Source: Candidatus Thorarchaeota archaeon (GTDB taxonomy: Archaea; Asgardarchaeota; Thorarchaeia; Thorarchaeales; Thorarchaeaceae). Taken from it: DNA of 33,293 bases. Within the stretch, counting starts at the first letter, position 1. Every line of letters starts with the position of its first letter. Positions 9,103 to 22,378 of the stretch are shown here, one piece after another. Both the position numbers and the translations under genes were made by a program. Location: NCBI GenBank assembly GCA_016839445.1, contig JAEOUG010000052.1, forward strand, positions 1 to 33,293. The letters are read 5' to 3'. The notes beneath the pieces were generated by a model. The model saw nothing but the letters and a program-made list of their open reading frames with translations. It did no database searches and had not been told where the DNA came from.

Positions 9103-10650
9103 CTAGAGCGGGATGTTCCCATGCTTCTTGGGCGGCCTGCTCTGTCTCTTGCTGGCCAGTAAGTCAAGACCCTTGCAGATCAGTGGACGAGTCTCACGGG
9201 GGAAGATGACCTTGTCAATGTACCCTAGGCCGGCCGCGATGTAGGGATTTGCGAACTGCTCCCTGTATTCCTTCACTAGCTGAGCTCGTTTCTTCTCTTT
9301 GTCTTTGGCCTTGGCAATCTCCTTGCGGAAGATGATGTTGATGGCCCCATCAGGTCCCATCACGGCAACCTCAGCGGTCGGCCAGGCATAGACCAAGTCG
9401 GCTCCGATGTGCTTGGAACTCATGACATCGTATGCCCCTCCGTAGGCCTTTCGAGTGATGATAGTGATGAGAGGGACCGTGGCCTCAGCGTAGGCATAGA
9501 GAATCTTCGCCCCGTGTCTGATGATACCTCCCCACTCCTGCGCCGTTCCCGGTAAGTATCCTGGCACGTCCATGAAAGTGATGACAGGCAAGTTGAACGC
9601 ATCGCAGAATCGCACAAACCGAGCGCACTTGTCAGATGCATTGATATCGATAGTTCCCGCTAGGTGAGCGGGGTTGTTGCCCACAACACCCACTGACCTA
9701 CCGTCGAAGCGTGCAAAGCCCGTGATCATGTTCTGAGCCCAGTGCTGGAAGACCTCGAAGAACTCGCCGTTGTCAGCCAGTTTCATGACAACATCGCGCA
9801 TGTCGTATGGCTTGTTGGGGTCATCTGGAATGATTTCGTCGATCGACTCATCAATATCCTCTGGAGCATGACCAGTGTCCACTCGCGGAGGCTCTGACAG
9901 GTTGTTACTTGGAATGTAGCTAAGAAGCGCCCGTATCTGGTGGAAGCAGTCATCCTCATCCTCGCTGGCAAAGGCCGCCACACCGCTCGTGGTGTTGTGC
10001 TTCATCGCACCACCCAGGTCTTCAAAGGTGACCTCTTCTCCAGTGACCGTCTTGATTACCTCAGGTCCAGTGATGAACATGTGGCTAGTTCCCTTCACCA
10101 TAAGCGTGAAGTCAGTCACAGCCGGACTGTACACCGCACCGCCTGCGCAAGGACCCATAATGGCGGAGATCTGCGGCACTACACCGCTTGCATGAGTGTT
10201 CCGTCTGAATATCCAGCAGTAACTTGCAAGGGACTTCACACCTTCCTGTATTCTCGCGCCTCCAGAGTCATTGATACCTATCACTGGAGCGCCGGTTTCA
10301 ACAGCCATGTCCATGATCTTGCATATCTTGAGGCCGTACATCTCTGCCAGAGAGCCGCCCCAGACAGTGAAGTCCTGACTGAAGATGAACACCTTGCGGC
10401 CGTCTATTGTGCCGTAGCCTGTTATCACACCGTCGCCAAGTATCTTCTGTTCGTCCATTCCAAAGGCAGACTCTCGATGTACGACGAATTCGTCAATCTC
10501 GACGAATGAGCCGGGATCAAGGAGCTTCTCGATGCGCTCCCTTGCAGTATACTTCCCAGCATCATGCTGCTTCTTGATGCGCTCTGGGCCCCCTGCTTCC
10601 TGGGCTTTCTTTCTCATCGCCTCAAGGCGTTCGAACTTCTCCTTCGACAT
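9103..10650 (-). CDS. pccB: Acyl-CoA (propionyl-/methylmalonyl-CoA) carboxyltransferase beta subunit
   Basis: A 515-residue biotin-dependent carboxyltransferase of the PccB/MmdA family with duplicated crotonase-like domains. The N-terminal domain shows [16 protein letters not shown] and the oxyanion-hole segment [13 protein letters not shown]. The C-terminal domain shows [43 protein letters not shown] and [11 protein letters not shown]. Together with a biotin carboxylase and carrier (absent here) it would carboxylate propionyl-CoA to (S)-methylmalonyl-CoA, or decarboxylate it. The mutase and epimerase at 16495-19971 support that substrate, but acetyl-CoA cannot be excluded. The start is ATG 10650 with AGAGGT eight bases before it. 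It is convergent with catalase. Confidence 0.93.
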
Positions 10651-13686: not shown

Positions 13687-14979
13687 TTATGTAGCGTCGG
13701 GGACTCGTTCCTCTTCAGCCTCAACCACTAGCTCAGCTTTCTTCAGCAGCTGCATCTCAGCCTCTTTCTGCTTGAAGAAGGCATAGAAGAACATGATAGA
13801 GAGGATGTAGAGCCCAGAGACCAAGATATAGGGCAAGCGATAGTAGCCAGCCGCTAGGAGCCAGCCACCTATATTCGCAGCAATGCCTCGGACCAGAGAA
13901 TCCCCGGTCCTGACCACCCCAACGGCCGTCGCTCTCTCTTCCTTTGCCAGCCCCTCCATGAAGAACGCGTTTGAAACGGGTCCAGCCATATTCATCAAGA
14001 CGGTGCGAGTGACATAACCGAGGACAGCGAGCTGGATTGTAGGGGCGCTGTAGATCAGTAGTAGGAAGGGAACAGAGAGAGCCTCAGTAATCACAACCGT
14101 TCGTACCTTGCCGATTCGATCTGCCATGGCGGGGGCGAGGAAATTGCCTGCAGACAGAACAACGGTGTTGATTGCGAAGATGATTCCAACAAGCTCAGCA
14201 TCAGCAGCGAACTCGTTGGCAAAGAACAGGTTGAAGAACATCACAATCATGCCTGCACCCAGGCCAACAATTGAAACCGTTATCGCATACTTCCCGATGA
14301 AGCCCCAGTTCTTCACGTTCCCTAGGGCAACCCGAACCTTAGAGTCGCTCGGTGTGTCACGACTCATAGGCACGACAAGGAGGATGGAAATCGCGTTGGG
14401 GATTAGACTCAGCCATAGGGCGAACCGGTAGGGGATGACCAATGAGCCCTCTGGACCAATTGACAGCAGATTGGCGAAGAGATTAGGCAGAAACCCTCCC
14501 AGAAGGTTCCCAGCAAGAACCGCAAGAAGGGAGAGACCGCTAGCGAAACCGAAGAGATGGGCACGTTCTCTATCGGTGGACAGCTCGGTGATGTACGGAG
14601 ACCATGACACCTGTGTGAAGGCACCTGTGAGACCTATGAATACCTGCGAGAGAATGAGGCTTGTCTGATCCAGAACTGTGTACTGAATGGCCACCGCTAT
14701 GAATGCAATCGCATTTGCTCGAAGAATCGTCTTCTTCCTGCTCATTCTATCAGAGACCGACCCAGCGACGAATGCTATTGCGGCCGTCGCAAACATGGAG
14801 ATTGAAAGAAAGAAGCCAATGAAGTCCTCTGGGAGACCTGCATCCTGCAGATAGAGATTGAAGATGACGCTGCTAATGCCATAGGAGAGTGAGCCGATGG
14901 AAGATGCTGCGATGTAGAGCCGAGCGTCTCGCTTGAACAATCGAATCTTGCCCAAATAGCCAAGTCGCTCTTCGCTCAA
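13687..14979 (-). CDS. Major facilitator superfamily transporter
   Basis: A 430-residue integral membrane protein with about twelve hydrophobic segments and cytoplasmic charged ends. The MFS loop 2-3 motif is recognisable as GSVSDRMSRKKTILRAN, and its pseudo-repeat in the second half is PAMADRIGKVRTVVI. The segment LSYGISSVIFNLYLQDAGLP is the first transmembrane region of the polar-solute MFS_1 type. The C-terminal tail is Glu-rich (VVEAEEERVPDAT). Substrate residues cannot be read from the sequence. The gene is divergent from threonine aldolase, with the inverted repeat 14992-15019 immediately upstream of its ATG. It is convergent with the Ntn-like gene, leaving 19 bases between the stops. 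Confidence 0.88.
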   Translation of the reverse strand: MSEERLGYLGKIRLFKRDARLYIAASSIGSLSYGISSVIFNLYLQDAGLPEDFIGFFLSISMFATAAIAFVAGSVSDRMSRKKTILRANAIAFIAVAIQYTVLDQTSLILSQVFIGLTGAFTQVSWSPYITELSTDRERAHLFGFASGLSLLAVLAGNLLGGFLPNLFANLLSIGPEGSLVIPYRFALWLSLIPNAISILLVVPMSRDTPSDSKVRVALGNVKNWGFIGKYAITVSIVGLGAGMIVMFFNLFFANEFAADAELVGIIFAINTVVLSAGNFLAPAMADRIGKVRTVVITEALSVPFLLLIYSAPTIQLAVLGYVTRTVLMNMAGPVSNAFFMEGLAKEERATAVGVVRTGDSLVRGIAANIGGWLLAAGYYRLPYILVSGLYILSIMFFYAFFKQKEAEMQLLKKAELVVEAEEERVPDAT

Positions 14980-16914: not shown

Positions 16915-18585
16915 TCATAGGTCAGCTGCTCTATACTCTCCGAAGACTCCTCTCAGGACGTCGCAGACCTCACCAATCGTGGCATACGCTTTCACAGCAT
17001 CTAGAATCAATGGCACAAGGTTTGAGTCACCTTCCGCGCCTTGCCGCAGGGCTTCAAGGGCACTCTGGACCTGCATTGCATCCCGTCCGGCCTTCATTGA
17101 TGCAACCCTTTCCTTCTGCTCCCTCTCAGCGTCTGGGTTCACCTTCAGGTAATCGAAAGACTGCTCCTCTTCAACGGTGAACCGGTTTACTCCTACTACA
17201 ACACGTTTCCCTGCATCAACATCCCGTTGGAACTGATAGGCGGAGTCATGAATCTCTCTCTGTACATAGCCCAGCTCAATCGCCTTCGCAGCGCCTCCCA
17301 TCTCGTCTATCTTCTGAATGTATTTCATCGCCGCTTCCTCCAATTGATTGGTGAGGTGCTCTATGTAATAGGATCCAGCAAGAGCGTCTATTGTATCACC
17401 CACACCTGACTCGTATGCGATTATCTGCTGTGTTCGGAGTGCAATCTGAACAGACTGCTCTGTCGGGAGGGAGAGCGCCTCATCGCGGGAGTTTGTGTGC
17501 AGAGACTGCGTGCCTCCGAGGACAGCTTGAAGAGCTTGAAGAGTGACGCGCACAACATTGTTGTCGGGTTGCTGTGCTGTGAGTGTGCAGCCTGCCGTCT
17601 GCGTATGGAACCTCATCTTGCATGAGTTGTCTTCCTTGGCGCCGAAGCGATCTCGCATGATTCTCGCCCAGAGGCGCCTTGCCGCTCTGAACTTGCAGAT
17701 CTCCTCAAGGAAGTCGCTGTGTGATCCAAAGAAGAATGACAGTCTTGACGCGAAGTCATCCACATCGAGACCCGCTCTGGTGGCGGCCTCTACGTAAGCG
17801 ATTCCGTTTGCCAGGGTGAAGGCAACCTCCTGTATTGCAGTGGAACCAGCCTCTCGAATGTGATAGCCACTGATGGAGATTGTGTTCCATAGAGGCATGT
17901 TCTCACTGCAGAACTCAAAGGTGTCAGTGATGAGCCGCATTGACGGCCCGGGAGGAAAAATGTAGGTTCCTCTGGCAACATACTCCTTCAAGATATCATT
18001 TTGGATTGTGCCTCGTAGCTTGTCCATTGAAACTCCCTGCTTCTCGGCGACTGCGATATACATCGCGAGAAGTACCGCGGCAGGGGCATTGATTGTCATC
18101 GACGTTGACACCTTGTCGAGAGGGATTCCAGAGAAGAGAACCTCCATGTCGGCAAGAGAGGTTACTGCCACTCCGACTTTGCCCACCTCTCCCTCAGCGA
18201 GTGGATGGTCCGAATCATAGCCAATCTGAGTAGGAAGATCGAAGGCCACTGAGAGACCTGTCTGGCCCTGTTCTAGGAGGAACTTGAAGCGTTCATTTGA
18301 CTCGCGGGCTGTTGCGAACCCGCTATACTGACGCATGGTCCAGAACCGTCCACGGTATCCTGTTGCCTGAACACCACGAGTGAACGGGAATTGCCCAGGG
18401 AAGCCTAGCTCCGTGATGTATTCATGACCTTCAAGGTCGAGCGGTGTATACAAGCGGTTCACAGGAATGCCAGAGATGGTGCAGAACGCCTTTTCTCGTT
18501 CAGGGTACTTCACCAAGGTCTTCTCAACAAGATCGCGCTTCCAACGCTCATGCTCACTGGAGAGATTCTTCTCAGAGCCCATCAT
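16915..18585 (-). CDS. mcmA1: Methylmalonyl-CoA mutase, catalytic (N-terminal) subunit
   Basis: A 556-residue TIM-barrel subunit that rearranges (R)-methylmalonyl-CoA to succinyl-CoA together with the cobalamin subunit at 19570. It has the family signature [20 protein letters not shown] and the substrate-contacting [16 protein letters not shown]. Further motifs are [50 protein letters not shown] and [15 protein letters not shown]. There is no C-terminal B12 domain, so the enzyme is the split archaeal type. The start is one of two consecutive ATGs after GGTGAG (18585 or 18582). It begins three bases after the meaB stop, indicating tight translational coupling. Isobutyryl-CoA or ethylmalonyl-CoA mutase is possible, but the epimerase neighbour favours methylmalonyl-CoA. 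Confidence 0.96.
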
Positions 18586-18588
18586 AAC

Positions 18589-19548
18589 TCACCTACTCTC
18601 TTTGAACAAGAATTCAGCAATCAGCCGTTCTGCCACTGAGTACGGGTCCTCTTCACGGCTGGCGATTCGTTCTATTGCCTTCTCGTACTCAGGCCTGCCC
18701 TGCAGTTTCTGCAGCAGCTCCTGTGTAAGCTTGAACTTCATGAGTTCCCGTAGTTCGTCCTTGCTCTTCTGGAGACCTCGCTTCTTCATTTCGCCACTAT
18801 CCACCAGATGCTGGTGGTGCTTCAGAATCGTATCAGCGAGCTCCGGTATGCCTTCACCGGACCGGGAGTTTGTAAGGAGGACGGGAGGTCGCCAAGTACG
18901 TTCCCGAGTATCGAGGTCGAGCATTGTGGTGATCTCTGTGGCTTTCTTCTCGGCCCCCGGAAGGTCCTTCTTGTTGACCACGAAGATGTCGGCAATCTCC
19001 ATGATGCCGGCCTTTATCGCCTGAATGTCGTCCCCACTTCCGGGAACGTCGGTGACGACAACTGTGTGAGCGATGTCGATGACCTCAACCTCGGACTGCC
19101 CGGCGCCGACGGTCTCAACGAAGATGATATCCTTGCCGAAGGCATCGATGGCGCGCACGGCATCAGAGGTCGCTCGGGCCAGTCCTCCGAGATGGCCCCT
19201 TGTTCCCATGCTTCTCACAAAGACCTCATCGTCAAGACTGTGCTCCTGCATCCGAATGCGATCGCCAAGCAGGGCGCCGCCAGTGAATGGACTCGAAGGG
19301 TCCACACAGACCACTCCGATAGTCTTCTCTCGACTCCTGAACTCAGCAGTCAGTCTTGTCACGAGGGAGGATTTCCCCGATCCCGGAGGACCGGTTACTC
19401 CTACAATATGAGCCCTCCCAGTGTGCTTGTAGAGTCTGCTCAACACATCGAGAGCTGACGACTCCTCATCTTCAATGAGGGAGATGAGTCGAGCCAAGTC
19501 GCGCCTTCTGCGATTGAGGACACCCTCAACCAAGTCGTCAACTGACAA
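18589..19548 (-). CDS. meaB: MeaB/ArgK-type G-protein chaperone of methylmalonyl-CoA mutase
   Basis: A 319-residue G3E-type GTPase that protects the mutase and gates cobalamin exchange. The P-loop VTGPPGSGKSSLVTRL is at about 51-66. It is followed by VVCVDPSSPFTGGALLGDRI (Walker A' and the switch region), MGTRGHLGG, the ETVGAGQSEVEV switch and the guanine-specificity motif VNKKDLPG. The C-terminal helices (RRRDLARLI at the N-terminus and KLTQELLQKLQG near the end) are those used for dimerisation in the family. The TTG start at 19548 follows GAGGTTGAT. It lies between the two mutase subunit genes in one operon, the standard genomic association. Confidence 0.95.
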   Translation of the reverse strand: MSVDDLVEGVLNRRRRDLARLISLIEDEESSALDVLSRLYKHTGRAHIVGVTGPPGSGKSSLVTRLTAEFRSREKTIGVVCVDPSSPFTGGALLGDRIRMQEHSLDDEVFVRSMGTRGHLGGLARATSDAVRAIDAFGKDIIFVETVGAGQSEVEVIDIAHTVVVTDVPGSGDDIQAIKAGIMEIADIFVVNKKDLPGAEKKATEITTMLDLDTRERTWRPPVLLTNSRSGEGIPELADTILKHHQHLVDSGEMKKRGLQKSKDELRELMKFKLTQELLQKLQGRPEYEKAIERIASREEDPYSVAERLIAEFLFKESR

Positions 19549-19569
19549 GGTATCAACCTCATGGAGAAG

Positions 19570-19971
19570 CTAGACCTTCGCGTGACTCTGAATGAACGTT
19601 ACAATCTCCTCAAGGGGCGTGCCTGGACCGAAGACCTCAGAGATCCCGGCTTTCTTCAAATCCGGAATATCATCCTCCGGTATGATACCGCCACCTACGA
19701 CCAAGATGTCATCAGCCCCTTCCTTTCTCAGCAACTCCATTATCTTGGGAAAGAGGGCATTGTGAGCTCCACTCAGGATGCTCAGACCAATCACGTGCAC
19801 ATTCTCGTCAAGAGCTGCCCTGACTATCATCTCGGGGGTCTGGCGAAGACCAGTGTATATCACTTCCATGCCAGCATCTCGCAGGGCACGAGCCACGACT
19901 TTGGCGCCACGGTCATGTCCATCAAGGCCCGGTTTCGCCACAAGCACTCGTATCTTCTTGGAAGAACTCAA
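19570..19971 (-). CDS. mcmA2: Methylmalonyl-CoA mutase, cobalamin-binding subunit
   Basis: A 133-residue B12-binding Rossmann-like domain. [18 protein letters not shown] contains the D-x-H-x-x-G motif, with His19 as lower axial cobalt ligand. [18 protein letters not shown] and [17 protein letters not shown] are the two other cobalamin-tail contacts (SxL and GG). It is the first gene of the five-gene operon. The best start is TTG 19971, five bases after GAGGTG (19977-19982). The GTG at 19977 is part of that site. The TATA box at 20017-20025 gives a leader of about 25 bases. Confidence 0.95.
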
Positions 19972-20016
19972 GAGCACACCTCAGGTAGTTATAGCGGTGC
20001 TTCTGAACTGGGCGCC

Positions 20017-20044: not shown

Positions 20045-21058
20045 CTACTCCTCCATGATGTGGACTATGTTCTCTCGTCCCTCACGGAATCGTCTCACGA
20101 GGCCTCGCTCTTCCAGGTTGTTAAGAAGCAGACTGACCTTCGCCTGGGACATTTCCGTCCCCGTGTAGAGATCCTTCTGTGAGCATGAGCCGCCCTTCTC
20201 GCGAATCAAGTCGAGTATCTCTTCTTCCTCGTTCGTGACTCCAACGAAACGGACCTTGCCAATCTTCTTGAATCGACGAATAATGGACGGTCCGAAGAAC
20301 ACAGAGGCCGCTCCAACCGCGAGTCCAATCAGTATGCCGCCAAGGAGCCAAAGAGGGGAAGCTACCACCGCATTGCCACCAGGGCACAGCAGCTGGTATT
20401 TGATGATGTATACTCGCTCCTGTCCAGGCTGGAGAAGAGGAGTGAACCAGACAAACGACAGAGTGCGACCGTCTGTGAAGTTGAGCTCATTGTCTGGGAA
20501 GATGGGCACGACAGACTCATCGGAAAGCAGAGAATCTTCGGGTAGTGTTGCAGTGAATGTGAAGTTGTGATAGGCATCCATTGGCCGAACATAGAAGATG
20601 AAGTCTGAGAGCTGAATCCCTGTCTCTGATCCCGAATAGGGGTCCGATTGAAGGTCCAGTGCCCTGACTCGAATCGTGAGCCATACGCATTCGCCTGACG
20701 CAACTGCCAATGGCAACGAAACAACGATTACCGTGTAGCGGTCCAGAAGGGTGGCATAGGCCCCAGTGGAAGTCCCGTTTACTACTGCCGAGAGGACATT
20801 GGCCTCCAGCGAATCAACCCGGAGCGAGAACTCGGTAACGTCGGATGGGCCTTGGTTGGTCATAAGTGCGTTGAAGGTGAGTATCGTGACTCCCTGCGCG
20901 GACATGACTGCGGTAATCTCCACGGGATCAAGAAGAATGTCATCGGTCTGAGCGACGACAGTCTGAGCAGTTGTGAACGGAATCATGGCAACTAGAGAGA
21001 GCAAGATGATAGTGCAGGCCACGCTTCTTCTCAAGTAGTGTTCACATCCAGTCTTCAT
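20045..21058 (-). CDS. Membrane-tethered winged-helix regulator with an extracellular beta domain
   Basis: A 337-residue protein with three parts. Residues 10-31 (RSVACTIILLSLVAMIPFTT) are a signal peptide or anchor. Residues about 35-230 form an external, probably beta-sandwich domain with Asn-x-Ser/Thr sites (NGTS, NFTFTA, NFTDG). Residues 235-256 form a membrane segment followed by the basic stop-transfer RRFKKIGK. Residues 274-337 are a cytoplasmic winged helix, GSCSQKDLYTGTEMSQAKVS, whose wing ends in NIVHIMEE. The architecture implies sensing outside and DNA binding inside. Similar membrane-anchored MarR-like proteins occur in archaea. It follows the anchored surface protein gene on the same strand, with a strong hairpin at 21128-21152 between. 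The signal and target genes are unknown. Confidence 0.75.
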   Translation of the reverse strand: MKTGCEHYLRRSVACTIILLSLVAMIPFTTAQTVVAQTDDILLDPVEITAVMSAQGVTILTFNALMTNQGPSDVTEFSLRVDSLEANVLSAVVNGTSTGAYATLLDRYTVIVVSLPLAVASGECVWLTIRVRALDLQSDPYSGSETGIQLSDFIFYVRPMDAYHNFTFTATLPEDSLLSDESVVPIFPDNELNFTDGRTLSFVWFTPLLQPGQERVYIIKYQLLCPGGNAVVASPLWLLGGILIGLAVGAASVFFGPSIIRRFKKIGKVRFVGVTNEEEEILDLIREKGGSCSQKDLYTGTEMSQAKVSLLLNNLEERGLVRRFREGRENIVHIMEE

Positions 21059-21175: not shown

Positions 21176-22336
21176 CTATTTCCTTCGAACCAACACAATG
21201 AGTACTGCCAGGATTACAACTCCACCTATTCCTAGTGCAAGGAGGGTGTCAGTATCTAGTCCCATTGATGGAGCGGCGTCTGCATAGAGCCCAATCGACG
21301 GGTCATGCAGAATACTCCCACCATCGAAGTTGGGATAAGATAGATAGACAGCAATACCAGCCCCAGTTGGTACGTATGAAGCGTTGACGTAGACGAGTTC
21401 TTGCTCGCCGCCGGGCCACGTTATCAGGGCCTGATCAACCCAGCTAAAGAAGCCTTGAGGAACTGCACTGGCGGCATCAATGAAGTCCATGCATTGCGTG
21501 TCAGTTCCATTCATCCTCTCGAATTGGGTCTCGTTGCCACCTATTGTGGTCCAGTTCATCGATGAGTCGATTGTGTTGTTGTGGGTTCGTTCACGGGTCC
21601 TAACTCTGTGTCGATTCTGCTGTGGGTCGCCCGAATCAAGGTCCTCCTTTTGGAGGGTCTGGAGTGCAACCGATGAAGTCTCACTACTGAAGGGGAAGTT
21701 GCCAATCTCGATGTCCATCTTCAGTTCCGATCTCCCCTCAACAAGGTAGCTTACGTTTGCCCCTCTGTCATCTGTAACGAGGCCTTGGTAGTCGTTCAGG
21801 TAGATATGAGCCCAGATCTGAAGAGTGACATCTTCGAATCGAGCTACTGATCCTGAGCCCTCAAGGGCTGCCGGCTCAGAAGTGAGCGGCACTGGACCAG
21901 CGCGAACTCCGCTCTTGGTGTACTTGAGCCAGACTTCTGTCGTTATACCATCTTCTACGACACTGCCAGTCGTCAAGGACCATTCGTAGGCGGCCAAGGG
22001 AGCGAAGTGGAGAGCCTCACCGCTCTGATAGGCACCGTCCTCATTCAGGTCCTCGAATTCAACAATCATGACATATGAGGTCTGGAACTTGGCGTGCTCA
22101 GCGTGCTCATCCACGGCAAACCAGAAGTGTAGTTGGGGAATCTCGCTGTCCGCCATTATGGATATGATGTCAGTCTTCACCCAGACCGATCCGTCGGCAG
22201 TTCGGGTCTGCTCGGGAGGAGAGCCAGAACCCTGACCACCAGGACCTCCCTCTTGCGCACTCACACTAAGAGTTGAAGTGGCAAGAAGCGTGCCCACTAG
22301 GAGTAGTCCGAGTAGTACTTTGTGGCTATTCTTCAG
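21176..22336 (-). CDS. Secreted, C-terminally anchored surface protein with an apparent CTG start
   Basis: A 386-residue protein of unknown function. With initiation at CTG 22336 the N-terminus reads MKNSHKVLLGLLLVGTLLAT, a complete signal peptide ending near VSAQE. The frame closes at TGA 22343-22345, and the only other start, GTG 22297, would remove the basic N-region. GGTGA (22343-22347) is six bases before the CTG, and the TATA box at 22370-22378 gives a leader of about ten bases. The mature protein has a Gly-rich stretch, a long beta-rich region with several N-glycosylation-type sites, and a C-terminal membrane anchor, TLLALGIGGVVILAVLIVLV, followed by RRK. This is the topology of archaeal surface-layer-associated proteins. 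No catalytic motif is recognised. Confidence 0.75.
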   Translation of the reverse strand: MKNSHKVLLGLLLVGTLLATSTLSVSAQEGGPGGQGSGSPPEQTRTADGSVWVKTDIISIMADSEIPQLHFWFAVDEHAEHAKFQTSYVMIVEFEDLNEDGAYQSGEALHFAPLAAYEWSLTTGSVVEDGITTEVWLKYTKSGVRAGPVPLTSEPAALEGSGSVARFEDVTLQIWAHIYLNDYQGLVTDDRGANVSYLVEGRSELKMDIEIGNFPFSSETSSVALQTLQKEDLDSGDPQQNRHRVRTRERTHNNTIDSSMNWTTIGGNETQFERMNGTDTQCMDFIDAASAVPQGFFSWVDQALITWPGGEQELVYVNASYVPTGAGIAVYLSYPNFDGGSILHDPSIGLYADAAPSMGLDTDTLLALGIGGVVILAVLIVLVRRK

Positions 22337-22369
22337 TGGTTGTCACCTAGGTTCTTCGCTGCCCGTAGT

Positions 22370-22378
22370 TATATAATG
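22370..22378 (-). promoter_or_regulatory. TATA box of the surface-protein gene
   Basis: ATTATATAAC on the minus strand is the most canonical TATA box in the window. It predicts a start near 22348, just ahead of the GGTGA ribosome-binding site and the CTG codon. Confidence 0.65.

Follow-up and report, generated by a model that had tools for sequence, protein, structure and literature searches.

Translation of a gene from Candidatus Thorarchaeota archaeon very probably begins at the CTG codon at 22336-22334 on the minus strand, which is the best explanation of the sequence comparisons laid out here. We hold with strong confidence that the conserved CTG start is genuine and that it is a property of part of the gene family. 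The window, meaning the whole stretch of DNA that was analyzed, is 33,293 nucleotides long and is one contig of a 2.9-Mb genome in 190 contigs (our designation for this genome is G000, and for the window gene L001). The minus strand in the start region reads CCTAGGTGACAACCACTGAAGAATAGC; along this strand TTATATA (22376-22370) is followed by AGGTGA (22348-22343), CAACCA, the CTG, and then AAG AAT AGC. The features of the gene are as follows.

22370..22376, minus strand: TATA box TTATATA, its first base 40 nt 5′ of the CTG (pattern match 22376-22334)
22343..22347, minus strand: Shine-Dalgarno (SD) element GGTGA, complementary to the 16S 3′ end and including the in-frame TGA at 22345-22343
22334..22336, minus strand: putative start codon CTG, from orthologue comparison, the codon column, the TATA and SD spacing and the signal peptide
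22256..22333, minus strand: remainder of the predicted signal peptide, residues 2-27 counted from the CTG, with the core from residue 7 (hydropathy and motif script)
22295..22297, minus strand: GTG, the first canonical in-frame start, rejected; residue 14, inside the hydrophobic core
21254..22255, minus strand: predicted mature extracytoplasmic beta-sandwich domain with a GLMP-like fold (structure model and structure comparison)
21182..21253, minus strand: predicted C-terminal transmembrane helix, residues 362-385, with RRK as the last residues of the protein
21176..22336, minus strand: whole coding sequence from the CTG, 386 aa plus stop, by translation

The in-frame TGA, which is also part of the GGTGA, opens a 388-codon frame (22342-21176, minus strand) in which the CTG is the third codon, and 6 nt separate the end of the GGTGA from the CTG. 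The first-pass annotation had placed the GGTGA, the CTG and the next canonical codon, GTG 22297, at these positions, and all three match base for base. Its statement that the CTG is the sole candidate upstream of that GTG also holds, since no ATG, GTG or TTG lies in frame between the TGA and GTG 22297, and the TATA box that it had described is present at a distance that suits a short leader.

A gene finder that considers only ATG, GTG and TTG would start the gene at GTG 22297, which is the first such codon in frame and heads an ORF listed at 373 aa. We consider this start very unlikely to be the one used. No SD element precedes it, the TATA box would be 79 nt away from it and not 40, and a protein begun there would lack the charged n-region of its signal peptide and keep just half of the hydrophobic core. 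The 13 codons ahead of GTG 22297, moreover, align with orthologues that have ATG at the position of the CTG. A different leader starting at the equivalent of GTG 22297 had been named beforehand as a refuting case, and it was found in none of the 25 orthologues described below.

As to the surroundings of the gene, the next gene 3′ on the same strand (20045-21058, minus) lies 117 bp past it and codes for a predicted membrane protein whose C-terminal part is a winged helix (DUF7343). Genes for methylmalonyl-CoA mutase, a MeaB GTPase and a B12-binding protein follow one another at 16915-19977 (minus), an MFS transporter gene is found at 13687-14979 (minus), 6 kb from the CTG-start gene, and the window also contains a carboxyltransferase gene at 9103-10650.

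Start codon, leader and signal peptide in the orthologues

The window protein matches 41 of 59 relatives at E<=0.001 and 29 of the 47 genomes of the taxonomic family at E<=1e-60. The start codons were compared in 25 orthologues whose 5′ end is intact. Loci were dropped from this set when the contig ends within the gene (L024, L041), when they are paralogues or distant members (L002-L004, L028-L033), or when we judged them to be duplicates of loci already included (L034-L037, L039, L040, L042, L044-L046); the orthologues in the family genomes G059, G061, G062 and G065 are outside the 25, and L038 is probably from the same genome as G062. In L014, L015, L018, L023, L025 and L038 we placed the start manually, since automatic anchoring had missed it by a few codons.

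CTG occupies the start position in 10 of the 25 (L001, the window gene, L005, L008, L009, L010, L012, L013, L016, L022 and L038) and ATG in 11 (L006, L007, L011, L017, L019, L020, L023, L025, L026, L027 and L043), while three have TTG with an ATG adjoining or near (L014, L015 and L021) and one, L018, is ambiguous. It had been proposed that an ATG, GTG or TTG at the same codon in relatives would support the CTG start, and the relatives bear this out, with ATG in 11, TTG in up to three and CTG kept in ten. The most direct exchange is that between L009, which reads GTGAATAAT-CTG-AAG, and L027, which reads GTGAATAAT-ATG-AAG. On a tree built with the N-terminal columns removed, five changes between CTG and not-CTG are needed and at least four are forced by starred branches. 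The CTG carriers stand in three separated places of the tree and make up 8 of the 12 rows of the clade of the window gene; L038 is sister to the ATG copy L017 by a starred branch, and L022 is sister to the ATG copy L023 by a branch that is not starred (support 83/91).

These results bear on the concern that the true codon could be ATG or TTG and the CTG an artefact of base calling, of assembly or of the strain. The genome is fragmented and single-base errors do occur, but sequencing error offers no explanation here because the same CTG is found at the same codon in ten orthologues from separately assembled genomes. An artefact is thereby refuted for the family, and the possibility deserves hardly any weight. 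Given the three places in the tree, the several forced changes, mostly against ATG, and the GGTGA that precedes all ten copies, the CTG is, on this comparative reading, no accident of a single genome.

The signal peptides were analyzed by a simple hydropathy and motif script, which is not a trained predictor. Read from the CTG, all ten CTG copies have a hydrophobic core that begins at residue 7 and a cleavage motif that ends at residue 27, with +1 to +3 charges ahead of the core, and in seven of the ten the next canonical start lies at or within the core. The first-pass annotation had claimed a complete signal peptide from the CTG that the GTG start would cut, and in this analysis the predicted peptide is indeed complete at 27 residues, GTG 22297 cutting into its n-region and core; its description of the product as a surface protein likewise fits the predicted signal peptide and C-terminal membrane helix. 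CTG is not among the starts that common gene finders generally consider, so annotation has probably missed the signal peptides of this gene and of its CTG-bearing relatives.

It could be argued that the CTG-bearing relatives use a nearby ATG, TTG or GTG, and that the CTG is a leucine codon or leader sequence. This possibility is supported by L005, L013 and L022, in which a TTG or ATG 3-4 codons downstream of the CTG would retain one positive charge and the whole core, and by L009, L012 and L016, in which an in-frame GTG lies inside the SD element so that leaderless use is conceivable. However, the window gene and L038 have no nearby canonical codon, the next being at residues 14 and 21, and the downstream canonical codons have no SD element of their own. 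A leucine codon or an untranslated codon, moreover, should not stay CTG in 10 of 10 copies. In the ten genes CTG makes up 15.6% of the 269 leucine codons, and the other five all-leucine columns use five to six leucine codons each. Since an ordinary leucine codon should vary and this column is invariant, the column is probably more than an ordinary leucine codon, and we regard the use of a nearby codon as improbable.

The GGTGA stands 5-6 nt before the CTG in all ten CTG copies and is complementary to the 3′ end of the 16S rRNA in the genome of the window gene, GGATCACCTCCT (pattern match at G000:C119:192-232). The ATG copies have an SD motif 3-8 nt before the start in 4 of 11 cases. This pattern, as derived from our alignment, is in line with the trend toward stronger SD elements at weak starts in the available part of PMC5622118.

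The position of the TATA box does not depend on the codon, its first base being at -40 or -41 from the start in 22 of the 25 orthologues, including all ten CTG copies (but not in L014, L015 or L018). In leaderless archaeal mRNAs the transcript begins at the start codon or within about 5 nt of it, with the TATA box about 25-30 nt upstream. A TATA box at -40/-41 suggests a leader of 10-13 nt, which might be so short that the SD element lies partly outside the transcript. We found no consistent RNA stem around the start in the 25 orthologues, and a genome-wide profile of TATA boxes before ATG starts held too few TATA matches for a peak.

In principle, the gene could be translated from a start farther upstream, from GTG 22346 in another frame or through the TGA at 22345, by a frameshift or by read-through of the stop. 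The overlap of GTG 22346-22344 with the SD element and the presence of the TGA in the copies with a 6-nt spacer are in keeping with this idea. The frame of GTG 22346 nevertheless stops after six codons, a 5-nt spacer, in the copies that have one, puts the TGA out of frame, and the TATA box leaves scant room upstream, and an upstream start is accordingly scarcely credible.

Our preferred explanation remains initiation at the CTG itself, as the first-pass annotation had read it, and this reading is supported by the conserved position, the exchange with ATG and the spacing of the SD element and TATA box. The TATA box some 40 nt upstream would probably yield, at the usual archaeal spacing, a leader of about 10-13 nt that carries the GGTGA, and pairing of the GGTGA with the 16S 3′ end would position the CTG in the P site. 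The ordinary initiator tRNA would presumably supply methionine there despite the mismatch at the first position, as it does at UUG, and initiation at this codon would proceed at a lowered rate. The product would have a 27-residue signal peptide, an external beta-sandwich domain, one C-terminal membrane helix and a basic tail. One possibility is that the CTG is retained to keep expression low.

Search for further CTG starts in the genomes

The exact pattern TTATAWA-N18-28-GGTGA-N5-6-codon was searched in the 47 family genomes. With CTG as the codon it gave 14 matches, nine of which are the orthologues of the window gene in nine genomes, and the control codons CTA, CTC and CTT together gave nine, so that the arrangement at this gene goes beyond chance; ATG gave 16 matches and TTG 13, including the paralogue of the gene on contig C65 of its own genome and the orthologue in G021. 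That paralogue, L002 (G000:C65:1-2202), has the same TATA-GGTGA layout and a TTG at the start position. A general class of CTG starts in the family was considered and is not supported, because outside this gene there are five CTG matches against nine for the three control codons.

In a second approach we counted SD motifs at a set spacing before each of the 64 codons near ORF 5′ ends and compared the counts with those of ORF interiors. For ATG, GTG and TTG near the 5′ ends, SD motifs have their peak at a distance of 4-8 nt, in the genome of the window gene too. In G034 (1,463 ORFs, 1.6 Mb), at a spacing of 5-6 nt that was picked after inspection of G000, of G038 and of the G034 stretch in its first half, CTG was the fourth codon, with 20 cases seen against 4.6 expected (P=1e-7), and no codon other than CTG joined ATG, TTG and GTG in having a strong SD excess. 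The second half of the stretch, unseen when the spacing was picked, had 6 cases where 2.0 were expected at 5-6 nt (P=0.018); at 4-7 nt it had 11 against 7.0 (P=0.10). The genome of the window gene (512 ORFs, 573 kb) had 7 against 2.3 at 5-6 nt (P=0.009), and in the AT-rich G038 CTG was outside the nine best codons at that spacing. The genome-wide CTG excess is thus modest, and it varies with the spacing; over 4-7 nt it was weaker, G034 having 29 against 15.2 (P=0.001) and G000 having 10 against 6.3 (P=0.10). Of the ORFs whose opening stop is the TGA of a GGTGA, 24 were counted in G000 and 45 in G034. CTG stands third in one of the former, the window gene, and in at most one of the latter, where it is absent from the 12 commonest third codons. 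A frame-free count of SD element plus codon over the genome was uninformative because SD-like words are frequent within genes, and there ATG too had little or no excess.

A Blast search for homology 5′ of all canonical starts singled out at least 104 of 859 ORFs with a hit, of which 48 rows were left after filtering. Most of these were spurious end extensions. An apparent read-through stop in a pair between G000:C65 and G034 was also rejected, since by eye the other frame is the end of the upstream gene. None of 26 other CTG candidates had a start exchange among its orthologues in the matches listed, at most seven for each. CTG initiation is probably feasible in these organisms at low frequency, and the conserved CTG is, as judged from these genome scans, a peculiarity of this gene.

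Two further loci were noted in the course of the scans. At G000:C119:4662 (L052:4662) a candidate CTG start has AGAGGTGA 5 nt before it and its next downstream canonical start 56 codons on; an in-frame GTG lies inside its SD element. A nucleotidyltransferase-like ORF of G034:C1 (568112-569171 on the reverse complement of the first 1.6 Mb) seems to begin at an ATA after GGAGGA and has no canonical start before its conserved N-terminus; it may be a sequence error.

Structure of the protein and its resemblance to GLMP

Sequence searches of Pfam, NCBIfam and the PDB with the product gave chance-level matches only. A structure model built from 31 sequences (pLDDT 84.5, pTM 0.80), which supersedes a first model with a pLDDT of 66.9, has a large beta sandwich flanked by one helix at the N-terminus and one at the C-terminus, and the lysosomal protein GLMP was the top match with both models. 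Foldseek against the PDB with the second model gave the GLMP structure 6nyq (E 8.4e-7), 8r8q_B (2.0e-5) and 7uft, which we take to be a bacterial GH38 mannosidase (4.3e-5). Going by its title and residue numbering, 8r8q chain B ('Lysosomal peptide transporter') is GLMP in a transporter complex. In VIA-align, 6nyq_C had a Z of 19.8 (rmsd 3.2 over 245 residues) and 8r8q_B a Z of 17.8, and the best unrelated structures were the mannosidase at 15.4 and a galactose-mutarotase-like protein at 14.9. The gap in Z weighs more than the absolute Z because the fold is common to many sugar enzymes; in the first, poorer model the two values lay close together, at 16.7 and 15.8.

The model of the window protein has the fold of the luminal domain of GLMP/NCU-G1 (PF15065). 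GLMP has a signal peptide and a short tail, and the predicted topology of the window protein is likewise of type I, with a signal peptide, one C-terminal membrane helix and a short tail. Identity to GLMP is 9-11%.

Independently of the structure model, the PF15065 profile was run over 227 genomes of the phylum and had no match above the Pfam cut-off there, where the best matches per genome, all below the cut-off, had E values of 5.6e-6, 8.6e-6 and 4.0e-5. In a control of 14 named genomes two had a match at E<=10 and none was above the cut-off, and a direct scan of 21 family members, one of them the window protein, gave no PF15065 match. Overlap with our own family profiles was determined for the 25 listed matches whose range in the profile starts at 40-70 (E 5.6e-6 to 0.72). 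Sixteen share their ORF with a match of a 16-sequence family profile, several of them through weak family-profile matches with E 0.02-0.7 (G136:C11, G135:C105, G143, G097, G172), and six more with a match of a 31-sequence profile, which makes 22 of 25; those outside family ORFs are G101:C436, G098:C187 and G039:C1. The remaining PF15065 matches listed cover other stretches of the profile, for the most part the membrane-helix end at its C-terminus. The 16-sequence family profile matches 128 of the 227 genomes at E<=0.01, for example in the ORFs G055:C24, G077:C166, G107:C149 and G131:C32.

We conclude that this Asgard-wide family is probably a remote homologue of the eukaryotic lysosomal GLMP/NCU-G1, and not a member of the Pfam family. 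The fuller proposal, that a widespread Asgard family of membrane-anchored extracytoplasmic proteins is ancestral to GLMP and has a Thorarchaeota member under a maintained CUG with a compensating SD element, is one that we put forward tentatively and rate somewhat short of even. In the literature searched, such a translational arrangement came up in no paper on archaea.

Comparison with known systems

Thorarchaeota belong to the Asgard archaea, among known prokaryotes the closest relatives of eukaryotes. With a start position that holds CTG in some lineages but ATG in sister lineages, the gene offers a natural test of how stringently the first base is read in Asgard initiation, and this stringency is of relevance because of that relationship. 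The link to GLMP is the more surprising part of our results, more so than the CTG start; if the resemblance is true, a lysosomal membrane protein joins the eukaryotic proteins that have Asgard relatives. Among the titles and abstract openings of the open-licence literature, no conserved CTG start in Asgard archaea is described, and no paper among the matches listed links GLMP/NCU-G1 with archaea; the available portions of PMC11252000 and PMC6819133 do not mention an archaeal relative of GLMP.

GLMP is described, in the available portion of PMC11252000, as an accessory subunit of the lysosomal MFS transporter MFSD1. Like GLMP/NCU-G1 (PF15065; 6NYQ, 8R8Q chain B), the Thorarchaeota protein is predicted to combine an extracytoplasmic beta sandwich with one C-terminal membrane helix; unlike it, the Thorarchaeota protein falls below the Pfam cut-off and has no known transporter partner.

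As a mode of initiation, the case described here is of a known kind, SD-led initiation at a codon other than AUG, and what is new is that the codon is a rarely used one that is here conserved. PMC7531240 names AUG, GUG and UUG as archaeal starts, and the word CUG does not occur in its text. The gene resembles SD-led archaeal initiation as presented there in its predicted short leader, its pairing with the 16S 3′ end and its NTG codon, and differs in that the codon is CUG. CTG starts have been reported for 5% of unannotated small ORFs of Methanosarcina mazei (PMC11456600) and for three of the seven entries in a table of small proteins from Haloferax volcanii sRNAs (PMC12482152), as far as the available text of these papers goes. 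Those are small ORFs, whereas the CTG described here heads a predicted secreted protein of 386 aa and is conserved between genera. In the part of PMC5622118 available to us, NTG starts exchange with one another and GUG and UUG starts accompany better conserved SD elements, and four switches to CUG are counted among 68,906 ancestral starts, namely 2 from 61,358 AUG, 1 from 5,080 GUG and 1 from 2,468 UUG. In contrast to so few switches overall in that survey, the single family described here needs several changes involving CTG.
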